Virus record (IMG/VR): IMGVR_UViG_3300001460_008321
Span: 5 to 28,141 of that record
Origin: a virus
Direction: 5' to 3' (one strand)
Length of the DNA: 28,137 nucleotides
This document shows positions 1 to 23,037 of the stretch, in pieces; position 1 is the first letter of the stretch; each line of letters starts with the position of its first letter. The translations under genes were made by a program, and so were the position numbers. Under the pieces are notes generated by a model. The model did no database searches. It was not told the origin of the DNA and saw only the letters and a program-made list of their open reading frames with translations.

Positions 1-14
1 TATATACATGCACT

Positions 15-116
15 ATGACCGAACCAGAAATTAATTTTACAGACGAGGTAGAACTCGACGAAACAATAGCATTTATACTAGATCGTATTGACGAAGCACA
101 ATTCGACGAGGATTGA
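15..116 (+). CDS. Small acidic hypothetical ORF (33 aa, may extend upstream)
   Basis: This short ORF starts at ATG 15 and ends with TGA at 114-116. It encodes 33 residues, about a third of them Asp or Glu, with a likely helix in the middle. The frame stays open to the window edge, so this could be the C-terminal end of a longer gene. No family is recognised. It is followed by an 80-nt gap before the Hsp20 gene, in which I see no convincing promoter. Confidence 0.35.
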   Translation: MTEPEINFTDEVELDETIAFILDRIDEAQFDED

Positions 117-196
117 TTTAGTATACCTCTATTGTCTGAGAATTTCCAGCACCCAAAACGGGGCTAGAAAAACAAAAACTAACTAAAAATAGTAGT

Positions 197-622
197 ATGA
201 CAATGATGATAAATAAAATGTTGGCTCCCTTGGTTTTCGAGGGAGATATCTTTAAGCGTATGCAGTTGTTAGCTAATGAAGCTAATACTCCATTGTATTC
301 AGGCTCAGAGCCTTACGATGCTTACAAGGACAAGGATGATAATTTTATTCTTGAGTTTGCATTAGTTGGATTAGATCAGGAAGATATTTCTGTATCTGTA
401 TCTGGCCAAACCTTAAAGATTGAGGCGGGATCTCAACAAAAAGATGATGATGCTGAATTCTACCATAGAAAAATATCTCGACGATCTGTCAAGAAGCACT
501 TTACCTTGCACCAGAACGTTGATAAGGACTCCATTCAGGCAGAATACAAGAATGGCCTACTGAGAGTCAAAATACCTCTAGAAAAAGAGGAGAAAAAAGA
601 TATAATGATTGAAGTTAAGTAA
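197..622 (+). CDS. Hsp20 / IbpA-type small heat-shock protein
   Basis: This 141-aa protein is a small ATP-independent chaperone that would hold unfolding proteins in the cytoplasm. The alpha-crystallin domain covers about residues 38-135. It begins at PYDAYKDKDDNFILEFAL, continues through GLDQEDISVSVSGQTLKIEA and ends in the family signature AEYKNGLLRVKIP. A C-terminal I-M-I fits the IXI tail that docks subunits in oligomers. The length matches bacterial IbpA. T4-like marine phages are known to carry hsp20 genes, which fits this setting. The N-terminus has three nearby Met codons (residues 1, 3, 4), so the exact start is uncertain, and no strong Shine-Dalgarno is visible. The gene is closed by a strong hairpin terminator just downstream. 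Confidence 0.93.
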   Translation: MTMMINKMLAPLVFEGDIFKRMQLLANEANTPLYSGSEPYDAYKDKDDNFILEFALVGLDQEDISVSVSGQTLKIEAGSQQKDDDAEFYHRKISRRSVKKHFTLHQNVDKDSIQAEYKNGLLRVKIPLEKEEKKDIMIEVK

Positions 623-644
623 AGCTTTGAAGTGACTTATATCG

Positions 645-682
645 CTCCTTCTAGGTTGTGCTTACCTAGAAGGAGTTTTTTT
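645..682 (+). terminator. Intrinsic terminator whose 3' arm doubles as a Shine-Dalgarno
   Basis: A perfect 12-bp stem pairs 645-656 (CTCCTTCTAGGT) with 664-675 (ACCTAGAAGGAG) around a 7-nt loop, and seven T follow at 676-682. This is a textbook rho-independent terminator behind hsp20. The 3' arm ends in AAGGAG, and the ATG of the next gene is at 683, so the same bases form a well-spaced ribosome binding site (7 nt) that is hidden when the hairpin folds. Confidence 0.9.
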
Positions 683-1294
683 ATGATCACTTACGGGATA
701 ACGGTAGCAGACGAGCTTTTCGAATTTAAAAGATTAATTAATTCACTTGAGCCATATGTTTTACCAGACGAAGAGATTGTCATCTTGGCAGATAAGAACA
801 AAGTAACTAAAGAGATTGAAGAGTTCTGCGAACTTTGCGGATTGAAGGTAAACTACTTTGATTTTAATAAAGATTTTTCTGAGTTTAAGAATACATTATT
901 TGAGTTATCTACAAAAGACTACTTGATGCAGATTGACGCTGATGAACAAATACCACCGTCTTTATTAAATGCATTAAGGTCAGTTGTTCAAAAAGGAGGT
1001 ATTGATCTGCTTTGGATTCCAAGGATTAATATCGTTCGCGGGGCGACAGGAGAACACATCAAAAAATATAACTGGACCATAAACGAAATGGGTTGGGAGG
1101 GATTCCCTGATTTTCAATCTCGCTTTGTTTCTACCAAAGGTCATGTTAAGTGGCAGAATAAAGTTCATGAGGTTTTAGCTGGAGCAAATAATCAAGCTAA
1201 ATTATCTAGTGATCCTATTGAGCATTTTTGCATCCTTCATGTTAAGGACATTCAGAAGCAAGAAAAACAAAATGACCTCTATGACACAATCTAA
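683..1294 (+). CDS. GT2-family glycosyltransferase
   Basis: This 203-aa GT-A-fold glycosyltransferase probably transfers a sugar to a surface glycan. It has an N-terminal strand MITYGITV, a nucleotide-sugar/metal motif D85-A-D87 (in MQIDADEQIPP), and a C-terminal block with FQSRFV and W..KVHEVL typical of short GT2 enzymes. I chose ATG 683 over an in-frame GTG at 632. The GTG start would put the terminator hairpin inside the coding region, while 683 has AAGGAG 7 nt upstream and begins right at the first beta strand. At 203 aa it is short for GT2 and lacks any membrane segment. Its end overlaps the next gene by about 20 nt. Donor and acceptor cannot be told from sequence. Confidence 0.82.
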   Translation: MITYGITVADELFEFKRLINSLEPYVLPDEEIVILADKNKVTKEIEEFCELCGLKVNYFDFNKDFSEFKNTLFELSTKDYLMQIDADEQIPPSLLNALRSVVQKGGIDLLWIPRINIVRGATGEHIKKYNWTINEMGWEGFPDFQSRFVSTKGHVKWQNKVHEVLAGANNQAKLSSDPIEHFCILHVKDIQKQEKQNDLYDTI

Positions 1295-2096
1295 AGTCCT
1301 TGTTAGGGTAGAGGGCGGGTTAGGAGATTGTCTTTTGTCTAATAGATTTATTCCTGCTATCAGAGAACATAACTCTGATTGTCATATTACTTTCGCTTTT
1401 GATAATAATAGAGGAGAGACTTACCAACTAGATGTTTTAGAGAGGTTTTATCCAAGCATGTCTGACAGATATTGTTTTTTGGGGGAGGTTGATAAGAGTG
1501 ATTATGATTTCTTTTATGATCTCCATATCGACAAAATGGAATGGACGACTTATGATTTTGATTGGTTGAGTAGATTCTATTACTTCCCAAAACCAGAGAT
1601 CACAGCCCCAAAAGGAGATTATGTTTGTTTGCACTTGACTCATAATTTATGGGAGCCAAAAAATCTTAAGAAGGATTATATCACCAAACTGGTCAACTCT
1701 CTTTATGATACTGGCAATAAGCTAGTCGCGATTTGCACAGAGAAAGAAAAAGAACGTTACTCTGATGTTTTGGATAAAGTTAAAATAGTTTGCTCTAGTA
1801 TTGAGGAGGCATGTATTACCGTAATGGGGGCTAAAGTTTTTGTAACCATTGATTCTGGTTTTAAGTATATGGCTTATGCCAATGGAGTTCCTACAATAGA
1901 AACTGCTGACTACTATTCACAAGTGGGAGTAACTAATCCGATGATTAAAGCGAGGTGGTTACCATTCCAAGAGAGGGGTTTACCTCTTTACTCTGATCCT
2001 CAATATTTCGCAATTGGGTTAAAAAATATTTTAGAGAATAGAATTTCTTCGATATTTCCTTATAATAATTCGATAGAAAGGACTTTTAAGATATGA
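1272..2096 (+). CDS. GT9-like (heptosyltransferase-type) glycosyltransferase
   Basis: This 274-aa GT-B-fold protein resembles ADP-heptose:LPS heptosyltransferases (GT9). The N-terminal loop VEGGLGDCLLSNRFIPAIR matches the GGLGD..L...al..lr signature. The C-terminal TIDSGFKYMAYANGVPTI matches the DSG.mH.A.a.g.P.v donor-site motif, with the usual His replaced by Tyr. ATG 1272 (or 1281) is taken as start, because earlier in-frame starts only add a hydrophobic stretch read from the preceding gene. It overlaps the upstream GT2 gene and the downstream methyltransferase gene (ATGA), which indicates translational coupling. It is shorter than cellular GT9 enzymes (about 320-350 aa). With the HldD-like gene at 19.6 kb, a role in heptose-containing surface sugar is plausible but inferred. 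Confidence 0.72.
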   Translation: MTSMTQSKVLVRVEGGLGDCLLSNRFIPAIREHNSDCHITFAFDNNRGETYQLDVLERFYPSMSDRYCFLGEVDKSDYDFFYDLHIDKMEWTTYDFDWLSRFYYFPKPEITAPKGDYVCLHLTHNLWEPKNLKKDYITKLVNSLYDTGNKLVAICTEKEKERYSDVLDKVKIVCSSIEEACITVMGAKVFVTIDSGFKYMAYANGVPTIETADYYSQVGVTNPMIKARWLPFQERGLPLYSDPQYFAIGLKNILENRISSIFPYNNSIERTFKI

Positions 2097-2743
2097 AGGA
2101 CAATAATTTTTGTGATTTTTTCGATAGGCAACCAGAAGAAAACTATGAACGTGATCATGGTGCTAGATTAGATTTTTTCGTAAAAGATTTTGAGTTGGAA
2201 AAGATCAAAAATCAAAGGATTGGAGATTTTGGGTGTGGTTATGGATGTTTATTCAAAAGATTAGATTCTGACAAAAACAAGTTTTTTGGTTTTGATGGAT
2301 ATGACTCTGAAGCAGCCACGAGTTATTGTGATTATACAATGGTAGACTTAGACCAAAAGTTCTCAGATTCTTTCCTAAAGAATGAAAAACAAGTTGATGT
2401 AGCCACATGCCTTGAGGTCATCGAACATGTTCAAAACCCCTACAATCTTCTTTACGAAATCAAAAAGATTCTCAAACAAGATGGCTTACTATATTTAACA
2501 ATTCCTCACTCTTCAATAACTCACAATACAATTTATCCAAGTTTAATTTATCCTCCTGAAAACTTTAAAGTATTCTTAGAACAAATGGCTTTTGAAGTTA
2601 AAGATGTAAGGATTCACAAAGAGGCTTTTGTACAAGTTGTCTTTACTTTGATTAACAAAGAGTGGTCGCATTCAAAAATGGTCTGGCCTAAATCTGAAGA
2701 TAAATTTAAAAACATTCCACCTCATTTCTTTGTTAATATATGA
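2093..2743 (+). CDS. Class I SAM-dependent methyltransferase
   Basis: This 216-aa Rossmann-fold methyltransferase is of the methyltransf_11/23 type. SAM-binding motif I is seen as IGDFGCGYGCLFKRL near residues 43-57. The acidic post-motif residue is FDGYD, motif II is DVATCLEVIEHVQNP and motif III is DGLLYLTIPHSS. The CLEVIEH string is typical of enzymes acting on small molecules or sugars, such as those in O-antigen clusters. It sits between two GT9-like genes with 4-nt overlaps on both sides, so methylation of a sugar or glycan in this cassette is the likely role. The substrate is unknown. Confidence 0.85.
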   Translation: MKDNNFCDFFDRQPEENYERDHGARLDFFVKDFELEKIKNQRIGDFGCGYGCLFKRLDSDKNKFFGFDGYDSEAATSYCDYTMVDLDQKFSDSFLKNEKQVDVATCLEVIEHVQNPYNLLYEIKKILKQDGLLYLTIPHSSITHNTIYPSLIYPPENFKVFLEQMAFEVKDVRIHKEAFVQVVFTLINKEWSHSKMVWPKSEDKFKNIPPHFFVNI

Positions 2744-4155
2744 ATACTTATATTGGATTTCATCAAGGCCAATATGGAGACCTTTTTATTTGTTTGACTG
2801 CGGCAAGAGTTGTAAAATCTCTTGATCCTAGCTGTAGACTTCTTTATGGAATAAACAAAAAATACAAAGATGTCGCAGAGGCTTTTAATCTCAGTGAAGA
2901 TATTGATGAAGTTGTAATTTGGGATGGTTATGATGATTGGCCCACTGAAAATGATAAGTTAAAAATAGAAGGGCTGAAGTTGAAATACGGGGACGTTAAA
3001 TTCTTTAATCCAATGCCAAAACACGTTATACCAGATTGGTATAATTACTGGCATCAGACTGAAGAGTTTTGCTTAATGCACGGTTTGCCAAGACCTCCTA
3101 AAGAATTACAAGATTTTAAATTAAACCACCCAAAGGTCGAGCAAGGGAACTACATTTGCATTTCTCCATATACAAGCTTTGGCAGAGCTAAAAATTTGAC
3201 TGAAGGAATGATTGAAGAAGTCAAGGGCTTTTGTAATTCGAATGACTTAGAATTAATTCAATTAGGTGGCTCAGATGATCCGTGTATAAGCGGTGTTGAA
3301 AAATTTAGTGGGACTTATTATGAGTCTCTTATAAAGATGTTGGGGAGTAAGGCTTTAGTTAGTGCAGATACTGGGATGGTTTGGGCAGCTTCTGCTTTTT
3401 CTCACCCAAGCTTAGTTTTTTACTCTACCAAATTTTATCCAAATTCTTCCACTTCTGAAAATTGGACTCCTAGAAATAAAAATCAAATTTCAATAGAGTC
3501 TGATTATATTTCTAATATTAATGTACCTGTATCAGAGTATTTACAAAAGACAATACTCGAAAGGACATATAGCAAAGAACAACAAGACTTGTTTGCCAAG
3601 AAGATAATTGGCGAACATGGATTTTTTCTAGACATTGGTTGTAGAACTCCTGTCGAAGAGAATAATACTAAACTATTAGAGCTATCTGGTTGGTCAGGAA
3701 TGCTTTTTGATATAGATGAAAATTTTGCGGAGCAATGCAAGAAGCAAAGGTTAAATCAAAGTTTCTGTATTGATGTGAGTTCTGGAGAGTTTATTAAAAT
3801 CTTAAAGCGGAACGGATGCCCTAAAGTTATTGATTATATTTCTATGGATGTTGATGGAGCCTCTTTAAAATGCTTGAAGAATTTGCTAGAATCTGGTTTC
3901 TCATTTAAGTGCATGACGTTCGAACACACTTGGGATTTGCATAATCCAGAAACAGAAAATTGCGTTCAAGAGTCTAGAGATTTATTGGAATTATTCGGTT
4001 ACAAAGTTTTATTCAAAGACGTTACTTTGGCTCATAGCGAACATATAGGAAAACCTTTTGAAGATTGGTGGATAAACCCTGAACTTTTAAATACTACTTT
4101 AGAGCCGAAGGAAAGCATGACTCATAAAGATATTATTAACTTTATTTACCCTTAA
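2740..4155 (+). CDS. Fusion: GT9-like glycosyltransferase + FkbM-like methyltransferase
   Basis: This 471-aa two-domain protein has an N-terminal half (about residues 1-265) that looks GT-B/GT9-like: GQYGDLFICLTAARVVKSL at the start and ALVSADTGMVWAASAFSHP as the donor-site motif. From about residue 290 a second domain begins with the SAM motif HGFFLDIGCR, then GWSGMLFDID and DYISMDVDGASLKCLKNL, characteristic of FkbM-type O-methyltransferases. It would couple sugar transfer and O-methylation in one polypeptide. It overlaps the upstream methyltransferase gene by ATGA and is 7 nt from a stand-alone FkbM gene. In the GT half the usual His of the donor motif is absent, so transferase activity is uncertain. 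No frameshift is seen at the junction. Confidence 0.75.
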   Translation: MNTYIGFHQGQYGDLFICLTAARVVKSLDPSCRLLYGINKKYKDVAEAFNLSEDIDEVVIWDGYDDWPTENDKLKIEGLKLKYGDVKFFNPMPKHVIPDWYNYWHQTEEFCLMHGLPRPPKELQDFKLNHPKVEQGNYICISPYTSFGRAKNLTEGMIEEVKGFCNSNDLELIQLGGSDDPCISGVEKFSGTYYESLIKMLGSKALVSADTGMVWAASAFSHPSLVFYSTKFYPNSSTSENWTPRNKNQISIESDYISNINVPVSEYLQKTILERTYSKEQQDLFAKKIIGEHGFFLDIGCRTPVEENNTKLLELSGWSGMLFDIDENFAEQCKKQRLNQSFCIDVSSGEFIKILKRNGCPKVIDYISMDVDGASLKCLKNLLESGFSFKCMTFEHTWDLHNPETENCVQESRDLLELFGYKVLFKDVTLAHSEHIGKPFEDWWINPELLNTTLEPKESMTHKDIINFIYP

Positions 4156-4162
4156 GTTAAAA

Positions 4163-4831
4163 ATGAATTTTAGAAATATAGAAAAATTAGCTTATTTAAA
4201 CTTTATTAATGATTCTTCTGTCGTGTATGACATTGGAGCGCATATTGGAGAAACGATTACTTTTTTTAATAATGCAACATCCCCTAAAAAAATATATGCA
4301 TTCGAACCCTGCCTTAAAAACTTTGAAGATTTAAAAAATAATACTTCTCAGTTTGGTAATGTTCAATATTTCGATGTAGCTCTTCTTGATAGGGCATATT
4401 CCTGCGAGACTAAGTTTAGAGATTGCAGAACAGAAGAACAGGATGCAGAACAACAGATTACGTATGTTGATATTAATGATTTTATAAATGAAAAGAATTT
4501 AGAGCGTCCAACTTTTATGAAAATTGACATTGAAGGCATGGAGTCTTTGGTTTTAAATTCCTTCACAAATATCTTTAGAATGGCAAGGCCAATTATGTAT
4601 GTCGAGATTCATGCAAAACCTAGAGATTTAGATGTTCAAGATTATAAAGACTGCCCTCATTGGGTTTGGCCAGAAGATGGGGGGTTCGACTTTAATAAAT
4701 TGAAAGACTTTAATTACGAAATTTTTTCAGAGAAACATGGGCTTTTAAATTTAGATGTTGATTGGAACCCATCTGAAGGAGATCATACTGGGTATATTCT
4801 CGCCCCTCAAAAAACCGTTAATTGGAATTAA
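4163..4831 (+). CDS. FkbM-family methyltransferase
   Basis: This 222-aa SAM-dependent O-methyltransferase has motif I VVYDIGAHIGETITFF (residues about 20-35), then IYAFEPCLKNFEDL with the acidic ribose-binding Glu. The FkbM hallmark FMKIDIEGMESLVLNSF is followed by PIMYVEIHAKP. FkbM enzymes methylate hydroxyls on sugars and polyketides and are frequent in phage and bacterial surface-sugar clusters. The gene lies between the GT9/FkbM fusion and gmd with gaps of only 7 and 3 nt, so it belongs to the same transcription unit. It is the third methyltransferase domain in this cassette. Confidence 0.9.
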   Translation: MNFRNIEKLAYLNFINDSSVVYDIGAHIGETITFFNNATSPKKIYAFEPCLKNFEDLKNNTSQFGNVQYFDVALLDRAYSCETKFRDCRTEEQDAEQQITYVDINDFINEKNLERPTFMKIDIEGMESLVLNSFTNIFRMARPIMYVEIHAKPRDLDVQDYKDCPHWVWPEDGGFDFNKLKDFNYEIFSEKHGLLNLDVDWNPSEGDHTGYILAPQKTVNWN

Positions 4832-4834
4832 AAA

Positions 4835-5863
4835 ATGAAAAAAGTAATAATCACAGGAGTCACAGGTCAAGACGGTAGTTTTATGGCAGACTACCTTTTG
4901 AAGAATACTGAACATACTATTGTCGCTGGAGTTCGACGATTAAGTGTTAAAAACCATGATAATATTAGTCATCTGGTAGATAATCCACGCTTCAAGCTTA
5001 TTGACTTAGACGTTGCAGATCAGGCTAATACAGAGGCAGTGATAGAAGAGGAGAAGCCAGATTACTTCATCAATTTCGCTGCTAATTCTTTTGTTGGTGT
5101 GAGTTGGAAGATGCCAGTTAATCATATGGAGACAAACGCAATGGCTGTTCTTTATCAACTAGAGGCTATAAGGAAACATTGTCCTAATTGCCGCTACTAC
5201 AATGCTGGCTCTTCAGAAGAGTTTGGAGACGTTTTATACTCTCCCCAGTCAGAGCTTCACCCTTTGCGCCCAAGAAGCCCCTACGGTGTTTCTAAGGCTA
5301 GTGCGAGGCACATGGTAAAAGTATGGAGAGATTCTTACGACCTTTACGCTATTCAAGGTTGGTTGTTTAATCATGAAGGTACTCGTCGTGGAGAAGAGTT
5401 CGTCACTCGTAAGATAACAAAGAATGTGGCTCGCATTAAAAATGAGTATATTTTAAATGATTTTAAACCTCTTGAGTTGGGGAATATTGATTCGAAAAGA
5501 GATTGGAGTGATGCGGAAGACTTTGTAGAAGGTGTTTGGTTAATGTTGAATCAAGAAGCTCCTAGAGAGTACGTCCTTTCTTCAAATGAAACTCATACTA
5601 TTAGGGAATTTGTAGAACAAGCGTTTAATTTTGCTGGCTTTGCTGTAGAAAAGTGCAAGTGGGTTGGTAAGGGTGTAGATGAGCAGTATGTGCATGAAGG
5701 TAGGATTTTGATGCAGATTAACCCAGAATTCTATAGACCTGCTGAAGTAGAGGTGCTTTGGGGAGACTCTTCAGATGCTAGGAGGGACTTGGGCTGGAAG
5801 CCTAAGACAAACTTTATTGGTCTTGTGAGAAAAATGCTTGCAAACGATATTAATTCATGTTAG
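4835..5863 (+). CDS. gmd: GDP-mannose 4,6-dehydratase
   Basis: This 342-aa extended short-chain dehydrogenase converts GDP-D-mannose to GDP-4-keto-6-deoxy-D-mannose, the precursor of GDP-fucose, rhamnose and perosamine. The NADP-binding loop G8-V-T-G-Q-D-G14 matches the Gmd-specific GxTGQDG. The active site carries S126-S127-E128 in NAGSSEEFG and Y150-GVS-K154 in RSPYGVSKA. The substrate loop FNHEGTRRGEEFVTRKIT is diagnostic of Gmd. It is near full length for the family (about 345-370). It ends the sugar cassette. No GDP-fucose synthase or aminotransferase follows in the window, so the product probably feeds a host enzyme or a gene elsewhere in the genome. Confidence 0.95.
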   Translation: MKKVIITGVTGQDGSFMADYLLKNTEHTIVAGVRRLSVKNHDNISHLVDNPRFKLIDLDVADQANTEAVIEEEKPDYFINFAANSFVGVSWKMPVNHMETNAMAVLYQLEAIRKHCPNCRYYNAGSSEEFGDVLYSPQSELHPLRPRSPYGVSKASARHMVKVWRDSYDLYAIQGWLFNHEGTRRGEEFVTRKITKNVARIKNEYILNDFKPLELGNIDSKRDWSDAEDFVEGVWLMLNQEAPREYVLSSNETHTIREFVEQAFNFAGFAVEKCKWVGKGVDEQYVHEGRILMQINPEFYRPAEVEVLWGDSSDARRDLGWKPKTNFIGLVRKMLANDINSC

Positions 5864-11693: not shown

Positions 11694-12395
11694 ATGATCC
11701 CTCTTTTTAAGAGTCAGTTTAGTGTAGGTAAGTCTATTCTCACCGCAGAGAAAATATTGGATATAGCTAAAACCGACCAATTAGGAAAGGTTGTTTTACT
11801 TGAAGACACTTTTTATGGGTTTAGAGTATTTAACAAGCTCTTTCAAGAGGAGGAGGTTCCATTTGTTTTTGGATTAAAGATATCTGTTCTTAATACAGAG
11901 GGGGACTACAGCGAAAAACCTAGCAAGCTAGCTCTTTTTGCGAAAAACAACGAAGGAATACGAGATTTGAAAAGGATGTATTCTAACGCCTCTTTGAATG
12001 ACCGAAATTCTTTGATTTTATCTGAGTATAACAAAATTGATTTTAAGAATCTAAAAGTGTGCGTCCCATTCTACGACTCTTATATCTTTAATAATTTATT
12101 TCATTTTGGCTTATCTCACATAGATATTAAAGACTTAGATCCGGTTTACTTTATCGAAGATAATAATCACCCCTTTGATTTCCAAATTAAATCTATTATT
12201 GACAGTCTTGATGTTAAGACTCAAACTGTTAAGACGATACTTCATCGTGACAAAGATGACTTTGCTGCTTTACAAATGTATAAAGCAGCTTGTAATAGAT
12301 CTGGAGGTAGGACTCCAACCTTCCAAAACCCAAACTTAAATCACTTCTGCTCAGACGAGTTCTGTTGGGAGTCTTATAAAGATGCTACCACATAA
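11694..12395 (+). CDS. Detached, degenerate PHP domain of DNA polymerase III alpha
   Basis: This 233-aa protein resembles the N-terminal PHP domain of DnaE. MIPLFKSQFSVGKSILTAEK parallels the DnaE start (HL.vHSdYS...g), KVVLLEDTFYGFRVFNKLF parallels the alTDh.nl.G...fy block, and VPFVFGLKISV parallels gikPIiG.e. The metal-binding H-x-H and D-H residues are replaced (K-S-Q and E-D), so phosphoesterase activity is not expected. In cellular DnaE this domain is fused to the polymerase; here it is a separate gene two positions before the polymerase core. It probably serves as a structural subunit that rebuilds the full alpha surface. It starts 9 nt after the nuclease gene and overlaps the exonuclease by 14 nt. 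The match is by eye over limited motifs. Confidence 0.65.
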   Translation: MIPLFKSQFSVGKSILTAEKILDIAKTDQLGKVVLLEDTFYGFRVFNKLFQEEEVPFVFGLKISVLNTEGDYSEKPSKLALFAKNNEGIRDLKRMYSNASLNDRNSLILSEYNKIDFKNLKVCVPFYDSYIFNNLFHFGLSHIDIKDLDPVYFIEDNNHPFDFQIKSIIDSLDVKTQTVKTILHRDKDDFAALQMYKAACNRSGGRTPTFQNPNLNHFCSDEFCWESYKDATT

Positions 12396-12996
12396 TCAAA
12401 AATATTTAGTCTTTGACACGGAGACTGAGGGTCTTAATTTGCACTCTTCTCGTACTTGGCAAGTTTCATGGTTGATTTGCCAAGGCAATAGAGTCATTAA
12501 AGAGAACGATAGATATATTAGCCATAAAGACCTACAAATTAATAAAAAAGTGGAGCATTTGACAGGCTTCAGTTGGGATAAGTATAACGAGAGGAAGGAG
12601 CCTTTGAAGAAAGTTTGGGCTGATTTTAAAGTTGATTTATTTAACCCAGAATATAAAATTGTTGGTCAGAACCTTTTGGGCTTTGATGTCTACATGGTGG
12701 CTTGCATGCAAAGGTTGTTGGGGGAAACTCCTGATTATTCGTATCTTAATCGAATTTATGACACTAGAGCCTTCGGCAAGGCTTACAGAGAAGATCTCGA
12801 CAAGCCCAAGAAAGATTTGTTGAGTTGGCAGTATAAGATAATCCATGACCGATCCCTCAAGTCGAGAGTTTCTCAAAACCAATTGCTTAAATTCTTTGGC
12901 ATAGAGTTTGAAGAAGAGAAGTTGCATGATGCCTTATATGATAATAAGATGTGCTTCAAGGTTTTTTCTGCACTTAAAAAAGAAATGAATTTGTAA
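12382..12996 (+). CDS. DnaQ-like 3'-5' proofreading exonuclease (DEDDh)
   Basis: This 204-aa exonuclease is probably the proofreading subunit of the adjacent polymerase. Exo I is F11-D-T-E-T15, Exo II is VGQNLLGFD (N97, D102) and Exo III is H182-D-A-L-Y-D187, giving the full DEDDh set. The length is close to the E. coli epsilon catalytic domain. It lies between the PHP gene (14-nt overlap) and the polymerase core (TAATG overlap), an order that points to one assembled replicase. No obvious clamp-binding QxxLF-type peptide is visible. Confidence 0.9.
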   Translation: MLPHNQKYLVFDTETEGLNLHSSRTWQVSWLICQGNRVIKENDRYISHKDLQINKKVEHLTGFSWDKYNERKEPLKKVWADFKVDLFNPEYKIVGQNLLGFDVYMVACMQRLLGETPDYSYLNRIYDTRAFGKAYREDLDKPKKDLLSWQYKIIHDRSLKSRVSQNQLLKFFGIEFEEEKLHDALYDNKMCFKVFSALKKEMNL

Positions 12997-15557
12997 TGTT
13001 TAAAGATTTTTCTGTTTACGACGATTGTGAGCCTATTGGCGTTGAATTACCTAAGACTTCTGTCAGCGAAGCTGTATTGAGGAGTATTGGGCTTGGCGAA
13101 GAAAGCTCCACTAAAGAAATTATGTATGAGCTTACCCGCAAAGGATTGCGGGACAAAGGAATTACAAAGTATGAGAATAAAAAAGAATATTTTGATCGTG
13201 CCAAACAAGAGCTAGAGACTTTTGAAGAGCTTGGATTTACAGATTATATTTTGTTAAATTGGGATGTTTTAAACTTTTGCCATGAAAATAGTATTCCCAC
13301 CGGAGCAGGTCGTGGTTCTGCTGCTGGATCTTTAGTTTTGTATTTGCTTAGGGTTACTAATATTGATCCCATTCCTCACAATTTGTTCTTTGAACGTTTT
13401 GTATCAAAGAGTCGTGCTAAAAAAGTTTACGACAAACGAAATAAAGAGTTTCTTGTTGGCAGTCTACTTCCTGATGTTGACTCAGATATCAGTTATGAGC
13501 AAAGACAGAGAGTCATTCAATACATTGAAGAAAAACATAAGGGCAGGACAGCAAAAATTTTAACCTTCAACACTTTTAGTTCGAAGCTTTGCATTAGAGA
13601 GGCTACCAAGTATTTTGATGAAGCCAAAGAGGACCAAGCTAATTCAGTTAGTGACATGATTCCGAAACTTCATGGCAAAGTATCTTCTTTAGATAATGCG
13701 AGAGAAGAGAATGAGAAGCTCGACAATTGGGCTAAAAAACATAGTAGGACTTTTATTAATGCGAAGAAGATTGAGAATCTAATTAAAAACACAGGAGTCC
13801 ATCCATCTGGCATTGCTATTTGCTCTCAATCAATAGGAGATGTTGTGCCTCTTCAAAAAACTAAAGATGGAGACTTAGTAACAGGTTACAATATGCACGA
13901 TGTTGCTGACCTCATGGTTAAGTTCGATATTCTTGGTCTTAGGACATTAACAATCGCTCACAGGACTTGCGACAAGATTGGCATTGGCATAGATGAAATA
14001 GACCCTAATGACCCATTCATATATGAGAAGCTTCAAACCTATAATCATCCAGAAGGTCTCTTCCAGATTTCAGCAGATACAAACTTCAGGGTTTGCCAAG
14101 ACGTAAAGCCTGACAATCTCAATGAACTTTCTGACGTTGTAGCTCTTGCTAGACCGGGGGCTTTACAATTTGTTGACGAATATGTCCGACAGAAACAAGC
14201 CCCTCAATCAAGCAACCTTCATAAAGAGCTAGATGAAATCCTATCTTGGTCTAAAAACGTTATCTTGTATCAAGAGCAGTTGATGCAGATTGCTAACAAG
14301 GTTTTCGGTTTGACTCTAGAAGAGGCAGAAACTCTTCGTCGCATTGTTGGTAAGAAGAAGGTTGAGGAAATGCCGAAGTGGAAAGATAGAATTTATGATG
14401 CTGCACAAGCTCTAGGTTTAGATAGTCAGATCAGTGATTTCTACTGGACTGCCCTACAAGCTTCTGCTGACTACTCATTCAACAAGTCTCACAGTTTCGC
14501 TTATGCTGAATTGGCAGCTAAGACAGTTTATTTGAAGTACAAATATCCTAGAGAGTTCTTCTTGTCTGTCCTTGAGTCTTCTGAGTTTGACCCAGAGCCT
14601 CTTGAAGTTGTTGCTTCTGTCCATCAAGAGTTAGATTACTTTGGTGTTCGATTATTACCTCCAAGCCTATTTAAATCAAAAATGGACTTTTCTATTGAAG
14701 GTGACAACATTAGATATGGCCTTAATGGAATCAAAGGTATTTCTTCTAAATCTAAAGAAGGTCTTTTATCTTTCAAAGGGTCAGACGGGTTTGAAAGCAA
14801 ATATGATGTATTCATGGCAGCTAAAAATTGTGGAATTAATATCTCAGTGCTAGCTGCTTTGATTCAAGCTGGATCTATGGACGAGTCTACAGAAAAAAGA
14901 GGCAGGTTAGTTTTAGAGGCTCAAGCTTTCAACATATTGACAGACAGGGAGAAGAGAAATTTTAATCTATTTAAAGAGAGGTTTGGTGATGATGTTTTAA
15001 AAGCAATATCGGAAGTGATAAGGGTGAACGCTATTGCTGATGATGGTCGCCCAATAATGAAAGAATCTAGGTTTAATACCTTTAAGAAAAATTTTAAGAA
15101 TTACAAAGAGATCTTCGACAAGAATAAGCCATTCCAGAAGTTTTGTAATTGGTGGTATGAAAATACTTTATTGGGTTATAGTTACTCTTTCGATTTGAGA
15201 GACTGCTTTGAAGATGAATTCGGTTCCATGAGTAGTCTAAGAGAAATAGATGAGATCTCAGAAAGAACGAGTTTCAAGGTAGCTTGCCAAGTAAAAGATT
15301 TCTTCACAAATATCTCTCAAAGCGGTAATAAGTATATGATGATTAATGTTTCAGACAATACAGGCTCATCTAAATTTTTAATGATGGATAATTCTAGATC
15401 TAATACTCTTTCAGACTTCCTTTCACAATATAAAATATCGAAAGAGTGCATTTTGATCTTGAATGCTAGTAAAGGCCGTGGTAGTAGTTTTATAACTTCG
15501 GCTAGGGTGATTGATACTAAAATCATGATGAAGCTTAGAGATCTGAATAAAAAATGA
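12996..15557 (+). CDS. DNA polymerase III alpha catalytic core (DnaE-type, without PHP)
   Basis: This 853-aa family-C DNA polymerase is the phage replicase. The palm carries G103-A-G-R-G-S-A-A-G-S and the metal motif P159-D-V-D-S-D164. The third catalytic Asp is D311 in VKFDILGLRTLTIAHR. Further DnaE blocks are FFERFVS, HPSGIAI, VALARPGALQF, TLRRIVGKKK and SYSFNKSHSFAYA, followed by a thumb/fingers region. A C-terminal OB fold is suggested by SFKVACQVKDFF...GNKYMMINVSDNTG. It is shorter than E. coli alpha (1160 aa) chiefly because the PHP domain is encoded separately upstream. No clamp-binding motif is clear and no sliding clamp gene is in the window. It overlaps the exonuclease (TAATG) and the Clp-like gene (ATGA). 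Confidence 0.93.
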   Translation: MFKDFSVYDDCEPIGVELPKTSVSEAVLRSIGLGEESSTKEIMYELTRKGLRDKGITKYENKKEYFDRAKQELETFEELGFTDYILLNWDVLNFCHENSIPTGAGRGSAAGSLVLYLLRVTNIDPIPHNLFFERFVSKSRAKKVYDKRNKEFLVGSLLPDVDSDISYEQRQRVIQYIEEKHKGRTAKILTFNTFSSKLCIREATKYFDEAKEDQANSVSDMIPKLHGKVSSLDNAREENEKLDNWAKKHSRTFINAKKIENLIKNTGVHPSGIAICSQSIGDVVPLQKTKDGDLVTGYNMHDVADLMVKFDILGLRTLTIAHRTCDKIGIGIDEIDPNDPFIYEKLQTYNHPEGLFQISADTNFRVCQDVKPDNLNELSDVVALARPGALQFVDEYVRQKQAPQSSNLHKELDEILSWSKNVILYQEQLMQIANKVFGLTLEEAETLRRIVGKKKVEEMPKWKDRIYDAAQALGLDSQISDFYWTALQASADYSFNKSHSFAYAELAAKTVYLKYKYPREFFLSVLESSEFDPEPLEVVASVHQELDYFGVRLLPPSLFKSKMDFSIEGDNIRYGLNGIKGISSKSKEGLLSFKGSDGFESKYDVFMAAKNCGINISVLAALIQAGSMDESTEKRGRLVLEAQAFNILTDREKRNFNLFKERFGDDVLKAISEVIRVNAIADDGRPIMKESRFNTFKKNFKNYKEIFDKNKPFQKFCNWWYENTLLGYSYSFDLRDCFEDEFGSMSSLREIDEISERTSFKVACQVKDFFTNISQSGNKYMMINVSDNTGSSKFLMMDNSRSNTLSDFLSQYKISKECILILNASKGRGSSFITSARVIDTKIMMKLRDLNKK

Positions 15558-17854
15558 ACGACTTACCACTTACTCCACAATTAAAGTGCATCCTTAAGGG
15601 TGCTCAAGATTTAAACGAATTCCTTGGGAGAAATAAGGTTGATATAGATGTTTTTTTTCATTCATTTATTAGTGACCTAAGCTTGTCTTGTGAGAAATTT
15701 CTTGAAGAATCTTTTTGTAGGGAAGCTTTGTTTATTGCATCTAAAAAGGTCATCGAGAAGAAGAAGTCTAACAAAATTGTTTCTACTAAATATTCCACTA
15801 AATTAAATAAATTACTAAATGAATGTAAGTTTATTCAGAAGGAGCTGTTTGAATTAGATTACGTTAGCACAGAAGCTATTTTGCTTTGTTTCTTGAGTGA
15901 AGGGTTCACTCCGAAGGCTTTCTCTGGGGTTCTTGAGGAACAAGATAGAGATCTAATGGTGGAGTCTATAACTCGTTTTATAAAAGACGAAGAAGAAGTA
16001 GCACCAGAGGGAGAATCAGAGTATTCTTTTGCTGATGATATTTCTATGGATATAGTTGGCAAATGGATTGGGATGTTTGATGAAAACCCAATCCTTGATC
16101 AGTTCGCAGAAAACTTAAACTTAAAAGCCTCCCGTCATGAATTTGATAAAATAGTAGACTTTGATGACAAAATATCAGAGATAGCGACTATTCTTTGCAG
16201 AAAGAAGAAGCCAAACGCAATTTTAGTGGGACCAGCGGGAACTGGTAAAACTTCTTTGATTGAGGGTCTAGCTTCCAAAATTGTAAATGGTGAAGCTCCA
16301 GAGCTTATCGCGAATAAAGTTATCTACTCTCTTAGTTTGTCTAGTATGGTCGCTGGAACACAGTATCGTGGTCAGTTTGAAGAGAGGCTGGAGAAGTTTG
16401 TAGATGAAGTTAAGAAGTATGAAAATATTATTCTATTCATAGACGAGGTCCATACTCTTGTTGGTGCTGGAGGAACTACAGAAAACTCCCTAGAAGCTTC
16501 TAATATACTCAAGCCAGAGCTTGCTCGTGGCACAATTAGTTGTATTGGAGCCACTACAATAAACGAGTATACAAACACTATTAAAAAAGACTCTGCTTTA
16601 GATCGTCGTTTTGAAAGGGTTATTATCAAAGAGCCTTCTAAATTTCAGATGAAGGAAATTTTACCTACTATAACCTCTTATTACGAAGACTTCCATAATG
16701 TTAATTATACTCAAAACTTTATTGACAATGTTATTGTTTTTTGTGAAAAATATCTTCCAAATAAATTTTATCCAGACAAAGCAATTGACGTAATTGATCA
16801 TTGTGGAGCGCAAGCGAAAGTTTCCCACTGGGGCAATGATACTTCATTTAAAGAGTTGCAAGAACAAATAAAAGATAACGATGTAGATATAACCTCGACA
16901 GAATCATTATTATCATTTGTAACAGAAAAATTATCAGACTGGTCTGAAGACAAGGAGGATGAAGTTCCAGAAGTTAGGATGAAGCATCTTAAAGATTTCT
17001 TCTCAAAGAAGGAGAACCCTCTGAGGAAGCCAAAAATTTTATCTGATCTCTCTGAGAGTTTAAAGAAAAAGTTTATAGGCAATAATAGAATTATTGATTC
17101 TCTTATCGAATCCATATCTCTATCTAATTATGGAATATATAAAAAAGGGTCAGCTCCCAGCATTTATTGTATTACAGGAGTTGAGTCTAGTGGCAAAAGT
17201 TTTTTCTGTTCGACTTTGAAGGACTCTCTGGAAAAGAGTGGCGTGAATATCTTAAGCTACAGCGGAGTTCATTTTTCAGATGAGTTCGCTAAGTTTAAAA
17301 TCTTACCAGAGATAATGAATAACACTTCTTTATGTGAGAAGATTAATATCTATCCTAATAGTGTCATTATTATTGACGATTTCCACAAGCTACATTTGTC
17401 TGTTAAGAGTTTATTTGCTCAAATACTAAAGGACGGGAAGTTGCAAATGGCTAATGGAGATATAGCTGACTTTTCTAATGTCAAAATTTTTGTGACTAGC
17501 GGAGTAGAGGACACTTCATCAATGGGGTTTAACTCTGACAAGGAGTCTCCAACCTCGTCTATTTTTAAAGAATTATTATCTCTAGTTGACTGTAATTTAG
17601 TATTAAATGAAGCTCGCAAAAAGGACATATTTAGAATTCTTTATCATAAGATACAGAAGATCAATGAAGATTTGAGATTGAGCGATATAGAGGTATTATT
17701 TACACTAAGTTTTCTAAAGAAATTCGCTCGTTCTTCTAAGAACCTAGTTGATTTCCAAGATCGTTTCGAGGACCAGATTAATAAGTTTATATGTCAAGAG
17801 TTGACGGGAAACGCCTCTAAAATAAATTTAGATGAAATGGGTTTTCTTAGTTGA
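15554..17854 (+). CDS. ClpA/ClpC-like double AAA+ ATPase with degenerate second ring
   Basis: This 766-aa protein is a Clp/Hsp100 unfoldase. The N-terminal domain has two Clp_N-like repeats (LTPQLKCILKGAQDL... and STKLNKLLNECKFIQKE... with ILLCFLSEG). D1 is complete: Walker A G226-T233 (GPAGTGKT), pore loop AGTQYRGQFEER, Walker B D297-E298, Arg finger region LDRRFERV (350-357). D2 keeps Walker A G542-S549 (GVESSGKS) but has D608-D609 instead of DE. It shows no GYVG pore loop and no Arg-finger (FINR-type) or GAR sensor-2 motif. M657-G-F659 falls where ClpA/ClpC carry the ClpP-docking loop. It is coupled by ATGA to the polymerase gene. Likely role: remodelling or degrading host or replisome proteins, possibly through host ClpP; a clamp-loader-like role is a weaker alternative. 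Confidence 0.88.
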   Translation: MNDLPLTPQLKCILKGAQDLNEFLGRNKVDIDVFFHSFISDLSLSCEKFLEESFCREALFIASKKVIEKKKSNKIVSTKYSTKLNKLLNECKFIQKELFELDYVSTEAILLCFLSEGFTPKAFSGVLEEQDRDLMVESITRFIKDEEEVAPEGESEYSFADDISMDIVGKWIGMFDENPILDQFAENLNLKASRHEFDKIVDFDDKISEIATILCRKKKPNAILVGPAGTGKTSLIEGLASKIVNGEAPELIANKVIYSLSLSSMVAGTQYRGQFEERLEKFVDEVKKYENIILFIDEVHTLVGAGGTTENSLEASNILKPELARGTISCIGATTINEYTNTIKKDSALDRRFERVIIKEPSKFQMKEILPTITSYYEDFHNVNYTQNFIDNVIVFCEKYLPNKFYPDKAIDVIDHCGAQAKVSHWGNDTSFKELQEQIKDNDVDITSTESLLSFVTEKLSDWSEDKEDEVPEVRMKHLKDFFSKKENPLRKPKILSDLSESLKKKFIGNNRIIDSLIESISLSNYGIYKKGSAPSIYCITGVESSGKSFFCSTLKDSLEKSGVNILSYSGVHFSDEFAKFKILPEIMNNTSLCEKINIYPNSVIIIDDFHKLHLSVKSLFAQILKDGKLQMANGDIADFSNVKIFVTSGVEDTSSMGFNSDKESPTSSIFKELLSLVDCNLVLNEARKKDIFRILYHKIQKINEDLRLSDIEVLFTLSFLKKFARSSKNLVDFQDRFEDQINKFICQELTGNASKINLDEMGFLS

Positions 17855-20708: not shown

Positions 20709-20793
20709 AGAAGGGGTTTACACCCCTCAGATAGATGAGGTTTGGCATTCAGATGCTCGCTTCAGGAAACTAGAGAGAGAACTTTTTGATTAA
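20545..20793 (+). CDS. Rz1-like outer-membrane lipoprotein (putative o-spanin)
   Basis: This 82-aa protein has a lipoprotein signal: basic start MNSLTKLKNYG, hydrophobic core LLAIVTPLIG and lipobox L22-T-S-C25. The mature part is about 58 residues. It starts inside the Rz-like gene in the +1 frame and runs 85 nt past its stop. Embedded or overlapping o-spanin genes of this type are a hallmark of lysis in phages of Gram-negative hosts. Its stop overlaps the stop of the convergent minus-strand gene within TTAA. Confidence 0.72.
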   Translation: MNSLTKLKNYGLLAIVTPLIGLTSCGSVSNPKTTTLNIYQPSSLKLKAGQPIQTEEGVYTPQIDEVWHSDARFRKLERELFD

Positions 20794-21623
20794 TTAAATC
20801 TATTCCTCCGTCTTAAAAGTAAAATTATAGGCAAAGCATTTAGCAGGGCTGAGTAAGCTTCTGGAATAGCGGTCGCAGTAGTTCCATTAAATTTCAAGAT
20901 AGAAGGGTTTTGGGAGAACGATACGCCATTCAAATAAATATCATCACCCTGTTCTGAAAACTCCTCTATTGAATCTAGAGTGAGCTGCGCGTTTGGAGAC
21001 AAATTAACGATAGATCTTTCTATTTGACTATTGATTGGGTCTCCAACTCCCCGTAGAGTCAAACTGCTAGTTGAATCTACATTTACCTTTAGACCAATTG
21101 AAGTAAACATGGCATACATACTAGACCCTTCAGTTATATTTAAAACTGAATATACATTATCATCATCATTTACTCCAGTGAAACCATTGCTTTTTTGAAA
21201 AGTAAAATCTGTAGACTTTAATGTTACTGAAAACCCATCTCCAATCTCGATATTTGAATAAGAGGGACTGTCTTCAAGTATTAAGGCATCTGTTATAGTC
21301 AATATGCTAGTGATAGCAGAATCTCGATCTAACTCTTTCAAGTCTGATTCTGAAAAATCCCAATTAGGAGCATCATAAAAATCATAAATTTCCTCTTCGT
21401 CTGCATCCCAAGGAATAATTGAATCTTCTTTTTTATCTTCGCTTTCAGTTATATCTACAACTTCCTCATTGCTGATCTGGATGGGTCTTTGGATATTGAC
21501 TACAGGGTTGATATTAGGGTTTTCTGTAGGGTTGATTAGGAATACATTTCCTTCTACAGAGGTAATAATAGCAGATTTAGCTACGGAAATAATTGAGAGT
21601 AAAGTTATGAGTGTGCGCTTCAT
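20790..21623 (-). CDS. Secreted PEP-CTERM-like protein
   Basis: This 277-aa exported protein has a signal peptide MKRTLITLLSIISVAKSA with an A-x-A-like cleavage site. The body is acidic and Asp/Ser/Thr-rich with beta-strand repeats (SSLTLRGVGD, NAQLTLDSI). The C-terminus is a tripartite sorting tail: AIPEAYS, then a hydrophobic LLNALPIILLL, then RRRNRFN. This copies the PEP-CTERM layout (V/I-P-E-P motif, TM helix, Arg cluster) used by exosortase, with Ala in place of the last Pro. Such proteins are common in exosortase-bearing Gram-negatives such as Verrucomicrobiota and are unexpected in a phage. The start overlaps the upstream small membrane gene by ATGA, so the two are co-translated. The function of the body is unknown; surface display during infection is inferred. 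Confidence 0.68.
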   Translation of the reverse strand: MKRTLITLLSIISVAKSAIITSVEGNVFLINPTENPNINPVVNIQRPIQISNEEVVDITESEDKKEDSIIPWDADEEEIYDFYDAPNWDFSESDLKELDRDSAITSILTITDALILEDSPSYSNIEIGDGFSVTLKSTDFTFQKSNGFTGVNDDDNVYSVLNITEGSSMYAMFTSIGLKVNVDSTSSLTLRGVGDPINSQIERSIVNLSPNAQLTLDSIEEFSEQGDDIYLNGVSFSQNPSILKFNGTTATAIPEAYSALLNALPIILLLRRRNRFN

Positions 21624-21816: not shown

Positions 21817-23037
21817 TTATTTTCTTATCATGTTAGGGAGTTTAATCACATCAGGGACTTGAGTGACTTGATCATCTTCTTCTAGTTCGAATGTTTCTTC
21901 TGAATTCTCAATATCTGTTTTTTTCTTTTCGCCCTCTTCCGACTGTTCTTCAGTCTCCTCTTTTTCTTCAGGCTCACCCTCTTCAGATTCTTCCTCCACT
22001 TCTTCTCCCTCATCTTCAGACTCCTCCTCTTCGGTCTCTTCTTCGGTCTCTTCTTTGGATTCCCCTTCGGATTCCTCTTCGGATTCCTCTTCGGACTCCT
22101 CTTCTTTGGGTTCCTCCTCTTCTCCTTCTTCTTCAGATTCCTCTTCTGATTCTTCAGTCTCTTCCCCTTCGTTTTCTTCTTCTGTCTCCTCTTCGGTTTC
22201 TACAGATTCTTCTTCTTTAACGGCCTTTCCTTCCCCTTCTCCTTCTCCTTCTTCATTGTTTTCTTCTGTAGGTTCGCCTTCATTTCCTTCTCCCTCGTTA
22301 GAAGCTTCTTCATTTGACGATTCGCCCTCTCCCTCTTCGCCACCAGATTCTTCACCTTCTCCTCCTTCGTAGCCTTCTTCAGACGTACCCACAACATCTC
22401 CATAACCTTTTTCGGCATATTCTACAATAGCTTCGGTAACACCACCAAAAGGTTGGAATCCGATTGTTGTCTCAGTAAAGTCATTTAAATTTGAAAATAC
22501 GTTATGTTCTTGCTCTGCTACGACAGCTATCTCAGTCCCCTTTTCTTTGGTGGTTTTTGCTTGGAAGTAGGCTCCACTACCTATAGACATAGTGCCAGCC
22601 ATTCCAATTGCCCCTACTTTTTGAACTGTTTCTTGTACAAAAGCAGTTAACCCAGTAGCTGCACTTGCGGTTTGAGTTGTCGCTCCAGCCGCTGCTACAG
22701 CCGCTGTGCCTTTCGCAGCTTTATCTAAAATATCTTTATTCTTTTCAGCTATTTCAGATAGCTTGTCCATAGTAGAAGTTTCAGGGGTTTCAGCCTTCAC
22801 TTCTTGGTTTTTATTTTTTTCAACTTTAACCTCTTCTTCCGGTTCGTCTTCTACTTCAGAACCACACTCGTCACAAACACAAGAGTTTTGTTCTAAATGC
22901 TTAATTTTTTGTAATAAAGCCCATGCTGTTTCTCTTGCATGACGGTCTAAGTCAGAGATGATTTTACTATCTTCTGGATTACAATATTTTTCAGCAAAAG
23001 CTTTCGCTTCCGTAAGGTCTTTCCGATGTTTACCCAT
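21817..23037 (-). CDS. Very acidic low-complexity protein with Cys cluster and hydrophobic segment
   Basis: This 406-aa protein has four parts. Residues 1-65 are helical and end with a C-V-C-D-E-C cluster that could bind metal. A Lys/Glu linker follows. About residues 105-160 are Ala/Gly/Thr-rich and hydrophobic (GTAAVAAAGATTQTASAATG, VGAIGMAGTMSIGSGAYF), possibly membrane-associated. From about 215 to 375 it is almost pure Glu, Ser, Gly and Lys in short repeats such as ESEEESEEESEG, ending in a hydrophobic-acidic tail (DVIKLPNMIRK). The isoelectric point must be extremely low. No family is recognised. Possibilities include a DNA mimic, a scaffold or a disordered envelope protein. It heads a three-gene minus-strand set and diverges from the holin-like gene. 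Confidence 0.6.
   Translation of the reverse strand: MGKHRKDLTEAKAFAEKYCNPEDSKIISDLDRHARETAWALLQKIKHLEQNSCVCDECGSEVEDEPEEEVKVEKNKNQEVKAETPETSTMDKLSEIAEKNKDILDKAAKGTAAVAAAGATTQTASAATGLTAFVQETVQKVGAIGMAGTMSIGSGAYFQAKTTKEKGTEIAVVAEQEHNVFSNLNDFTETTIGFQPFGGVTEAIVEYAEKGYGDVVGTSEEGYEGGEGEESGGEEGEGESSNEEASNEGEGNEGEPTEENNEEGEGEGEGKAVKEEESVETEEETEEENEGEETEESEEESEEEGEEEEPKEEESEEESEEESEGESKEETEEETEEEESEDEGEEVEEESEEGEPEEKEETEEQSEEGEKKKTDIENSEETFELEEDDQVTQVPDVIKLPNMIRK
21900..22380. repeat. Long purine/pyrimidine-asymmetric low-complexity tract
   Basis: For about 480 nt the + strand is nearly all C and T in TCTTCC-like words, coding the Glu/Ser-rich part of the minus-strand gene. Exact 12-nt tandem repeats are visible: TCGGTCTCTTCT twice at 22031-22054 and TTCGGATTCCTC at 22066-22077 and 22078-22089, with a third copy at 22090-22101 differing by one base. 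The tract could undergo slippage or form triplex DNA. Confidence 0.8.

Follow-up and report, generated by a model that had tools for sequence, protein, structure and literature searches.

The stretch analysed here, positions 5 to 28,141 of the IMG/VR virus record IMGVR_UViG_3300001460_008321 (28,137 nucleotides (nt), referred to throughout as the window), carries immediately behind its DNA polymerase gene a clp gene encoding a 766-residue unfoldase of the ClpA/ClpC type. The first AAA+ ring of this protein (D1) retains every motor motif, and the second (D2) keeps its fold, is catalytically degenerate and bears a conserved tripeptide resembling the loop by which Clp unfoldases dock on ClpP. From alignments and predicted structures we consider it probable, at a moderate level of confidence, that the protein is a ClpC/ClpA-type unfoldase driven by a single motor, D1, and docked on the ClpP of the host by a static D2 collar. 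This proposal is founded on the intact D1, the constrained but non-catalytic D2, the invariant docking-like tripeptide and the failure to find a protease encoded by the phage.

The protein matched PHROG 4871 ('ATP-dependent protease') across residues 62-725 (E 1e-103), gave matches above the cut-offs for Pfam AAA, AAA_lid_9 and AAA_2, and had ClpC as its top match in a search of the PDB (E 1.5e-79). The NCBIfam models for ClpA (TIGR02639; 359.5 bits, equivalog cut-off 993) and ClpB (TIGR03346; 308.3 bits, cut-off 1232) were both matched below threshold and, since the ClpA score lies under its cut-off, the protein is treated as a Clp relative and not as a ClpA equivalog. An AlphaFold2 (AF2) model of the full protein had a mean predicted local distance difference test score (pLDDT) of 77.5. 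Aligned with ClpC over residues 2..763 (Z 27.3), the model gave a root-mean-square deviation (rmsd) of 14.1 over 704 residues, so that the alignment holds domain by domain and not as one body; likewise, residues 5..361 aligned with the N domain and D1 of Hsp104 (residues 1-360; Z 25.9, rmsd 6.8 over 318). The two-ring layout of class I Clp/Hsp100 proteins, an N domain plus two Clp-type AAA+ domains, is therefore seen in both the Pfam and the fold matches. Pfam Clp_N was found only weakly in the N domain (E 0.16, in one of seven proteins); the fold alignments with Hsp104 and ClpC include the N domains. The middle-domain (coiled-coil) insert of ClpC was not seen in the alignment. The PADLOC matches were weak and fell mainly on the D1 P-loop, and one of them, to PDC-M37B (E 0.00035), covers D2 residues 590-746.

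The gene, its domains and its motifs are as follows, with the AAA+ motifs named in the usual way.

15554-17854, plus strand: clp gene, ClpA/ClpC-type AAA+ unfoldase, 766 residues (PHROG 4871, NCBIfam, fold match)
15554-15988, plus strand: N domain, rapidly evolving, resembling ClpC/Hsp104 in fold (AF2 model; matches 5wbw and 6amn)
16091-16828, plus strand: D1 AAA+ motor and its lid, motor motifs retained (Pfam AAA and AAA_lid_9)
16229-16252, plus strand: D1 Walker A, GPAGTGKT (alignment of 49)
16361-16372, plus strand: D1 pore loop, QYRG (Y271 and R272 in 49/49)
16430-16447, plus strand: D1 Walker B, ILFIDE (alignment of 49)
17051-17818, plus strand: D2 AAA+ fold, catalytically degenerate (D2 model, fold matches)
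17177-17200, plus strand: D2 Walker A, GVESSGKS, kept
17300-17335, plus strand: D2 pore-1 loop site, shortened, without GYVG or an aromatic residue (alignment of 49)
17363-17380, plus strand: D2 Walker B, VIIIDD (DD for DE)
17519-17533, plus strand: SMGFN, putative ClpP-docking loop (MGF at 17522-17530; conservation, alignments)

Conservation of the two rings and the tripeptide

Homologues were collected from IMG/VR using the protein and the D2, N-domain and whole alignments, together with one search of GTDB genomes, which gave 55 family loci in addition to the window. An initial alignment of 23 members was extended by 28, two of which end before the loop. The counts given here refer to 49 sequences (45 distinct), namely the window protein and 48 of the 55 loci; left out were L124 and L126 (contig end before the loop), L013 (partial) and the repeats L003, L004, L011 and L035, and an intact ClpC-like outgroup (L059-L061) was not counted in the family.

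The lineage has been seen on over 50 contigs of uncultured phages. A copy was found in a single cellular record, a 25 kb contig in a metagenome-assembled genome (MAG) called Flavobacteriaceae (L070, from the GTDB search), which may be a phage contig binned into that MAG. Near cultured relatives were not found, the 15 polymerase matches listed (of 1340 records) all showing less than 33% identity. In a D1 tree of 31 rows the 12 family representatives formed a clade of their own (support 100/100, stem 1.54), the neighbours of which the tree does not settle.

All motor residues of D1 are preserved. The Walker A GK, the pore tyrosine, the Walker B DE and the RR pair (R351/R352 in the window protein) occur in 49/49 homologues, with the residue after the GK being T in 47 and S in two. 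Moreover, D1 is the most conserved part of the protein, with an all-pairs identity of 0.83 and a ratio of nonsynonymous to synonymous substitution rates (dN/dS) of 0.014-0.064 in 11 pairs. The corresponding identity for D2 is 0.52 overall (minimum 0.35), with 0.60 in its core and 0.40 in its lid. The N domain has an identity of 0.43 (minimum 0.22) and a dN/dS of 0.13-0.21 in six of ten pairs (extremes 0.03 and 0.48).

The fold of D2 is kept, and a model of D2 only (pLDDT 83.8) had ClpA as its best fold match (Z 22.0, 269 aligned, rmsd 4.8). Its Walker A retains GK in 49/49 (followed by S in 40 and T in nine), a feature that the initial annotation of the window had omitted. The remaining motor motifs, DE, GYVG, the arginine finger and GAR, are each found in 0/49. 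Walker B reads DD in all 49; residues 583-594, the stretch of the pore loop, contain neither an aromatic residue nor a GYVG-like motif in any homologue; the NR finger is gone, with no arginine within 668-682; and the GAR of sensor 2 is missing throughout. Sensor 1 is TSG in the window protein, as against TSN or TTN in partner proteins, and its Asn is found in only two of the 49. The short stretch replacing the pore loop (17300-17335) holds a mostly kept NTS. A different arginine, R694 in the D2 lid (17633-17635), is R in 48 homologues and K in one, and may in principle replace the lost catalytic arginine.

The D2 core gave a dN/dS of 0.018-0.035 in eight of the ten pairs with a value (one further pair was saturated), and 25 of its 151 positions are invariant in the 49, DD included. 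Low dN/dS, similar to that of D1, argues that D2 is not decaying and, judged by this constraint, D2 is retained for some function.

A total of 116 residues follow sensor 1 in D2, and among these only G658 and F659 are invariant. Position 657 is M in 43 homologues and L in six, giving [ML]GF in 49/49, and SMGF is also present in five of the loci outside this set (L013, L003, L004, L011 and L035). Within 23 sequences the codons differ, every TCN codon being used at S656, every GGN codon at G658 and both TTY at F659; as the codons vary while the residues stay, the conservation is that of protein and not of DNA. A chance tripeptide is ruled out by its conservation across the 49 sequences. As in ClpP partners, a hydrophobic-Gly-hydrophobic tripeptide lies between sensor 1 and the arginine-finger helix, and M657-G-F659 aligns with the VGF (VGFN) of B. 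subtilis ClpC and the equivalent tripeptide in further Clp proteins, including ClpA. An identical pentapeptide, SMGFN, is carried by L032, a bacterial ClpC that scores 1355 bits against its B. subtilis counterpart. The single ClpB compared (L033) has LGE at this site, and ClpB is not known to have a ClpP partner. The docking motif is reported as Ile/Leu-Gly-Phe (PMC11005422), and by sequence [ML]GF fits a hydrophobic-Gly-Phe docking motif. Furthermore, residues 655-663 are coil with pLDDT <50 in the full model, and block 171-180 of the D2 model is low-confidence coil (mean pLDDT 51), so that the loop is predicted to be flexible, as a docking loop would be.

The initial annotation had described a Clp-type unfoldase with all D1 motor motifs, an inactive-looking D2 (DD, with no GYVG, finger or sensor-2 Arg) and an MGF at the ClpA/ClpC docking site, and on each of these points the alignments, including those with ClpC, ClpA and ClpB, agree with it. 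The findings that it had named as speaking against it included loss of MGF in homologues, burial of MGF in the predicted fold and close homologues with an intact D2. The tripeptide proved to be conserved, its position in low-confidence coil in both models argues against burial, and none of the 49 homologues has an intact D2.

A different picture was obtained for the other phage Clp proteins examined, a set of 15 made up of 11 encoded by named phages, three by uncultured-phage assemblies, and L059. They were hand-picked from 149 matching records and an IMG/VR search, many of the 149 being near copies or bacterial contamination. D2 is complete in 15/15 (GYVG, DE, finger arginine and GAR); the arginine-finger pattern was too narrow and missed three (SCTP-2, LR756501 and L059), in which NR is visible in the alignments. 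Within this sample of 15 the dead D2 is, on alignment, special to this lineage. Records labelled Listeria phage or Acinetobacter phage (L032, L021 and L033) hold bacterial clpC, clpA-clpS and clpB and represent contamination.

Polymerase operon and protease content

The genes upstream of clp are listed below, and the polymerase III (Pol III) alpha subunit is split over three open reading frames (ORFs) in 11694-15557, encoding the PHP, exonuclease and catalytic parts.

11694-12395, plus strand: separate PHP domain of Pol III alpha (PF02811, PHROG 405)
12382-12996, plus strand: DnaQ-like 3'-5' exonuclease, same operon (PF00929)
12996-15557, plus strand: DNA polymerase III alpha catalytic part, polC (NTPase, finger, HHH; PDVDSD; Pfam; NCBIfam polc, 462 bits)
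15554-15557, plus strand: ATGA stop/start overlap of polC and clp (sequence)

In every family locus long enough to include it, the Pol III alpha gene is the immediate upstream neighbour of clp, and the exonuclease and PHP genes precede polC wherever the locus extends enough. The distance from the polC stop to the clp start is between -8 and +6 nt in 54/54 loci, a count that omits only L013, whose contig begins inside the gene; the start codon was chosen by us as the one closest to the match, either at its beginning or further upstream. An overlap of 8 nt occurs in 24 loci, an overlap of 4 (ATGA, as in the window) in 21 and an overlap of 1 in four, with spacings of 0, 0, 0, 3 and 6 nt in the remaining five. 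The initial annotation had pointed to the ATGA link; the coupling it stood for is conserved, while ATGA itself is one of several forms. Translation of clp and polC is probably coupled. A pattern search of 21 family polymerases found no conserved clamp-binding motif. Among 14 related records, searched with one Pfam model each, neither the beta clamp (0/14; control 11/14) nor the clamp-loader delta-prime family (0/14; control 13/14) was detected.

ClpP (CLP_protease, PF00574) was found in 0/29 family phage records (0/4, 0/7 and 0/18), mostly the larger ones among the 54 family contigs, using a model that matched in 12 of 14 control genomes. A phage-encoded ClpP partner is ruled out by this result in the records searched, and the missing ClpP fits the use of host ClpP. 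The outgroup record G013 likewise gave no PF00574 match, and the six matches in the MAG behind L070 were taken as cellular. The ClpS adaptor was found in 0/14 family records (control 5/14). Each of 14/14 family records has one AAA_2 match at E 0.001, 13 of them over the cut-off. A 118 kb contig (G001; L077 and L082) corresponds to the window (noted at 1-5863) in two identical parts, and because the window joins its two ends, this contig probably represents a nearly complete genome.

Possible modes of action

In the proposed mechanism D1 would be the only motor, with its QYRG pore loops gripping and threading the substrate. D2 would fold and probably bind ATP through its kept Walker A, with poor turnover owing to DD and to the lack of an arginine finger and sensor 2, and would form a static collar, keeping the ring assembled and presenting the hydrophobic clefts of ClpP with its [ML]GF loops. 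Produced from the polymerase operon, the unfoldase would appear alongside the phage replication proteins, and the coupling suggests action at replication time. The fast-evolving N domain would select substrates, host or phage, its rate of change suggesting changing targets. Hexamer formation, the ATP states, ClpP docking, degradation and the choice of substrates are the parts of this mechanism that we infer.

Several points weigh against it. The loop-bearing stretch is 87-89 residues long in the family members compared, versus 97 in ClpA and 105 in the L032 ClpC, and so lies outside the usual 95-108 of the intact Clp proteins compared (ClpX not among them). In E. coli ClpX, changes in loop length, and the substitution I268L, weaken ClpP binding (PMC7112951), and six of the 49 homologues carry L in the tripeptide. 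D2 is described as the more critical translocation ring of two-ring Clp ATPases (PMC11005422), and a machine driven by D1 only may therefore be weak. Moreover, the D2 fold scores place ClpC and ClpB just behind ClpA, so that ClpP partners are not singled out from ClpB, and the protein falls under the NCBIfam equivalog cut-offs for ClpA, ClpB and others. The other two D2-core dN/dS values are high (0.13 and 0.26), both from very close pairs with very small dS. Finally, many of the phage records are fragments, and IMG/VR classes all of them as linear.

It is unlikely, in our view, that the protein instead remodels replication complexes for the coupled polymerase independently of ClpP, with [ML]GF binding another phage or host partner. 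Such a role would suit the close junction with polC, found directly upstream at each of the 54 loci, and the lack of any clamp or clamp-loader family in the 14 records, so that the polymerase may need other help. However, it would leave as coincidence that the sole strictly kept feature in the C-terminal half of D2 corresponds to the ClpP-docking motif, varying only between M and L, and the absence of a conserved clamp-binding motif from the 21 polymerases provides no biochemical tie between the pair. We regard as rather improbable a ClpP decoy, in which MGF would cap host ClpP and keep host ClpX, ClpC or ClpA off, thereby shielding phage proteins. The docking loop is indeed retained in a protein whose D2, normally the principal motor, looks dead, but a decoy needs no perfect D1, and D1 has its catalytic residues and pore tyrosine in every homologue and the low dN/dS given above.

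An ordinary two-motor unfoldase, in which D2 hydrolyses ATP through substitutes such as D609 as base and R694 for the lost arginine, is more doubtful still. The D2 Walker A and R694 are conserved as such a scheme would have it, but none of the 49 has the catalytic glutamate, the pore aromatic, the arginine finger or GAR, and 47 of them lack the sensor-1 Asn. The loss of motifs in D2 could also be read as the rotting of a pseudogene in progress, which is extremely improbable: none of the 28 newly added ORFs is interrupted by a stop codon (contig ends truncate two), and this reading is ruled out by these intact ORFs together with the dN/dS of D2 and its invariant positions.

As a distinctly improbable extension of ClpP docking by a one-motor unfoldase, the protein might support a polymerase swap, pulling parts of the host replisome (such as host alpha) into host ClpP and freeing the clamp machinery for the phage enzyme. 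The setting for this would be a phage with its own Pol III alpha and exonuclease and no detectable clamp or clamp loader; the lack of a clamp-binding motif in the 21 polymerases does not help it.

Comparison with known Clp systems

Bacterial ClpC and ClpA working with ClpP share with the window protein the N-D1-D2 order, the D1 motifs, a near-full-length predicted fold and a tripeptide at the docking site. They differ in having the GYVG, catalytic Glu, arginine finger and GAR of D2, which are gone in the phage protein; the phage docking stretch is about 10 residues shorter than that of ClpA and about 18 shorter than that of ClpC, and no middle-domain insert like that of ClpC was seen in its alignment.

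The ClpA-like proteins of jumbo and other phages (RaK2, GAP32, PBECO4, XaC1, PA5oct, Atu_ph07, Phosso, SCTP-2 and others) are also phage-encoded and of similar length, and the docking-like tripeptide occurs in many of them too. In RaK2, GAP32, PBECO4 and XaC1, however, the clpA-like gene stands among tail and virion genes, whereas the window clp lies behind the polymerase. In RaK2-like jumbo phages (L018, L022, L030 and L017) its neighbours encode the tail sheath and structural virion proteins, which hints at a role in virion assembly there.

The initial annotation had suggested a new kind of takeover factor, which is too strong: the literature describes phage ClpA, ClpX, ClpS and ClpP genes (PMC7824862, PMC6102473; phage ClpA and related genes also in PMC12619734) and, in SPO1 Gp53, an adaptor-like phage protein of host ClpCP (PMC6873191). 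Gp53 is likewise a phage protein turning the host Clp protease to its use; it binds host ClpC as an adaptor, whereas the window protein is an unfoldase that would replace ClpC. Thus phage ClpA, ClpP, ClpS and a ClpC adaptor are already known, and what is new is a phage Clp form with a degenerate D2 and a kept tripeptide. In Streptomyces ClpC1-ClpP1P2 with Walker B mutations, ATP is consumed only in D1 and D2 is docked via LGF loops (PMC11005422), which resembles the one-motor reading favoured here in having a D2 idle on ATP yet docked on ClpP. In that form Walker B was mutated in the laboratory in both rings, and the middle domain was altered too, whereas in the window protein only D2 is degenerate, and naturally so. 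A literature search, with most subscription papers outside its reach, found no report of a phage Clp with this degenerate D2, or of a naturally occurring Clp machine whose D2 collar never hydrolyses ATP.

Elsewhere in the window, the region between the Hsp20 and epimerase genes holds a set of sugar and methyltransferase-like genes different from that of the 118 kb contig, as if this island were swapped within the population. A protein encoded at 20790-21623 on the minus strand, without a Pfam or NCBIfam match, has a signal-like start and a C-terminal IPEA, hydrophobic stretch and RRR, an ending that resembles PEP-CTERM sorting signals and is a possible hint at the host. The protein at 21817-23037, also on the minus strand, contains a very long Glu/Ser-rich low-complexity tract.

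The phage protein looks like a natural separation of functions within a Clp unfoldase, with one ring as the motor and the other as a docking collar, and would let a single natural protein test what D2 hydrolysis and D2 pore loops do in two-ring Clp machines. If docking is true, its loop would provide a short natural form for comparison with known ClpP ligands, and the phage would bring its own choice of substrates to the host protease without bringing a protease, and would do so in a manner tied to its polymerase operon.

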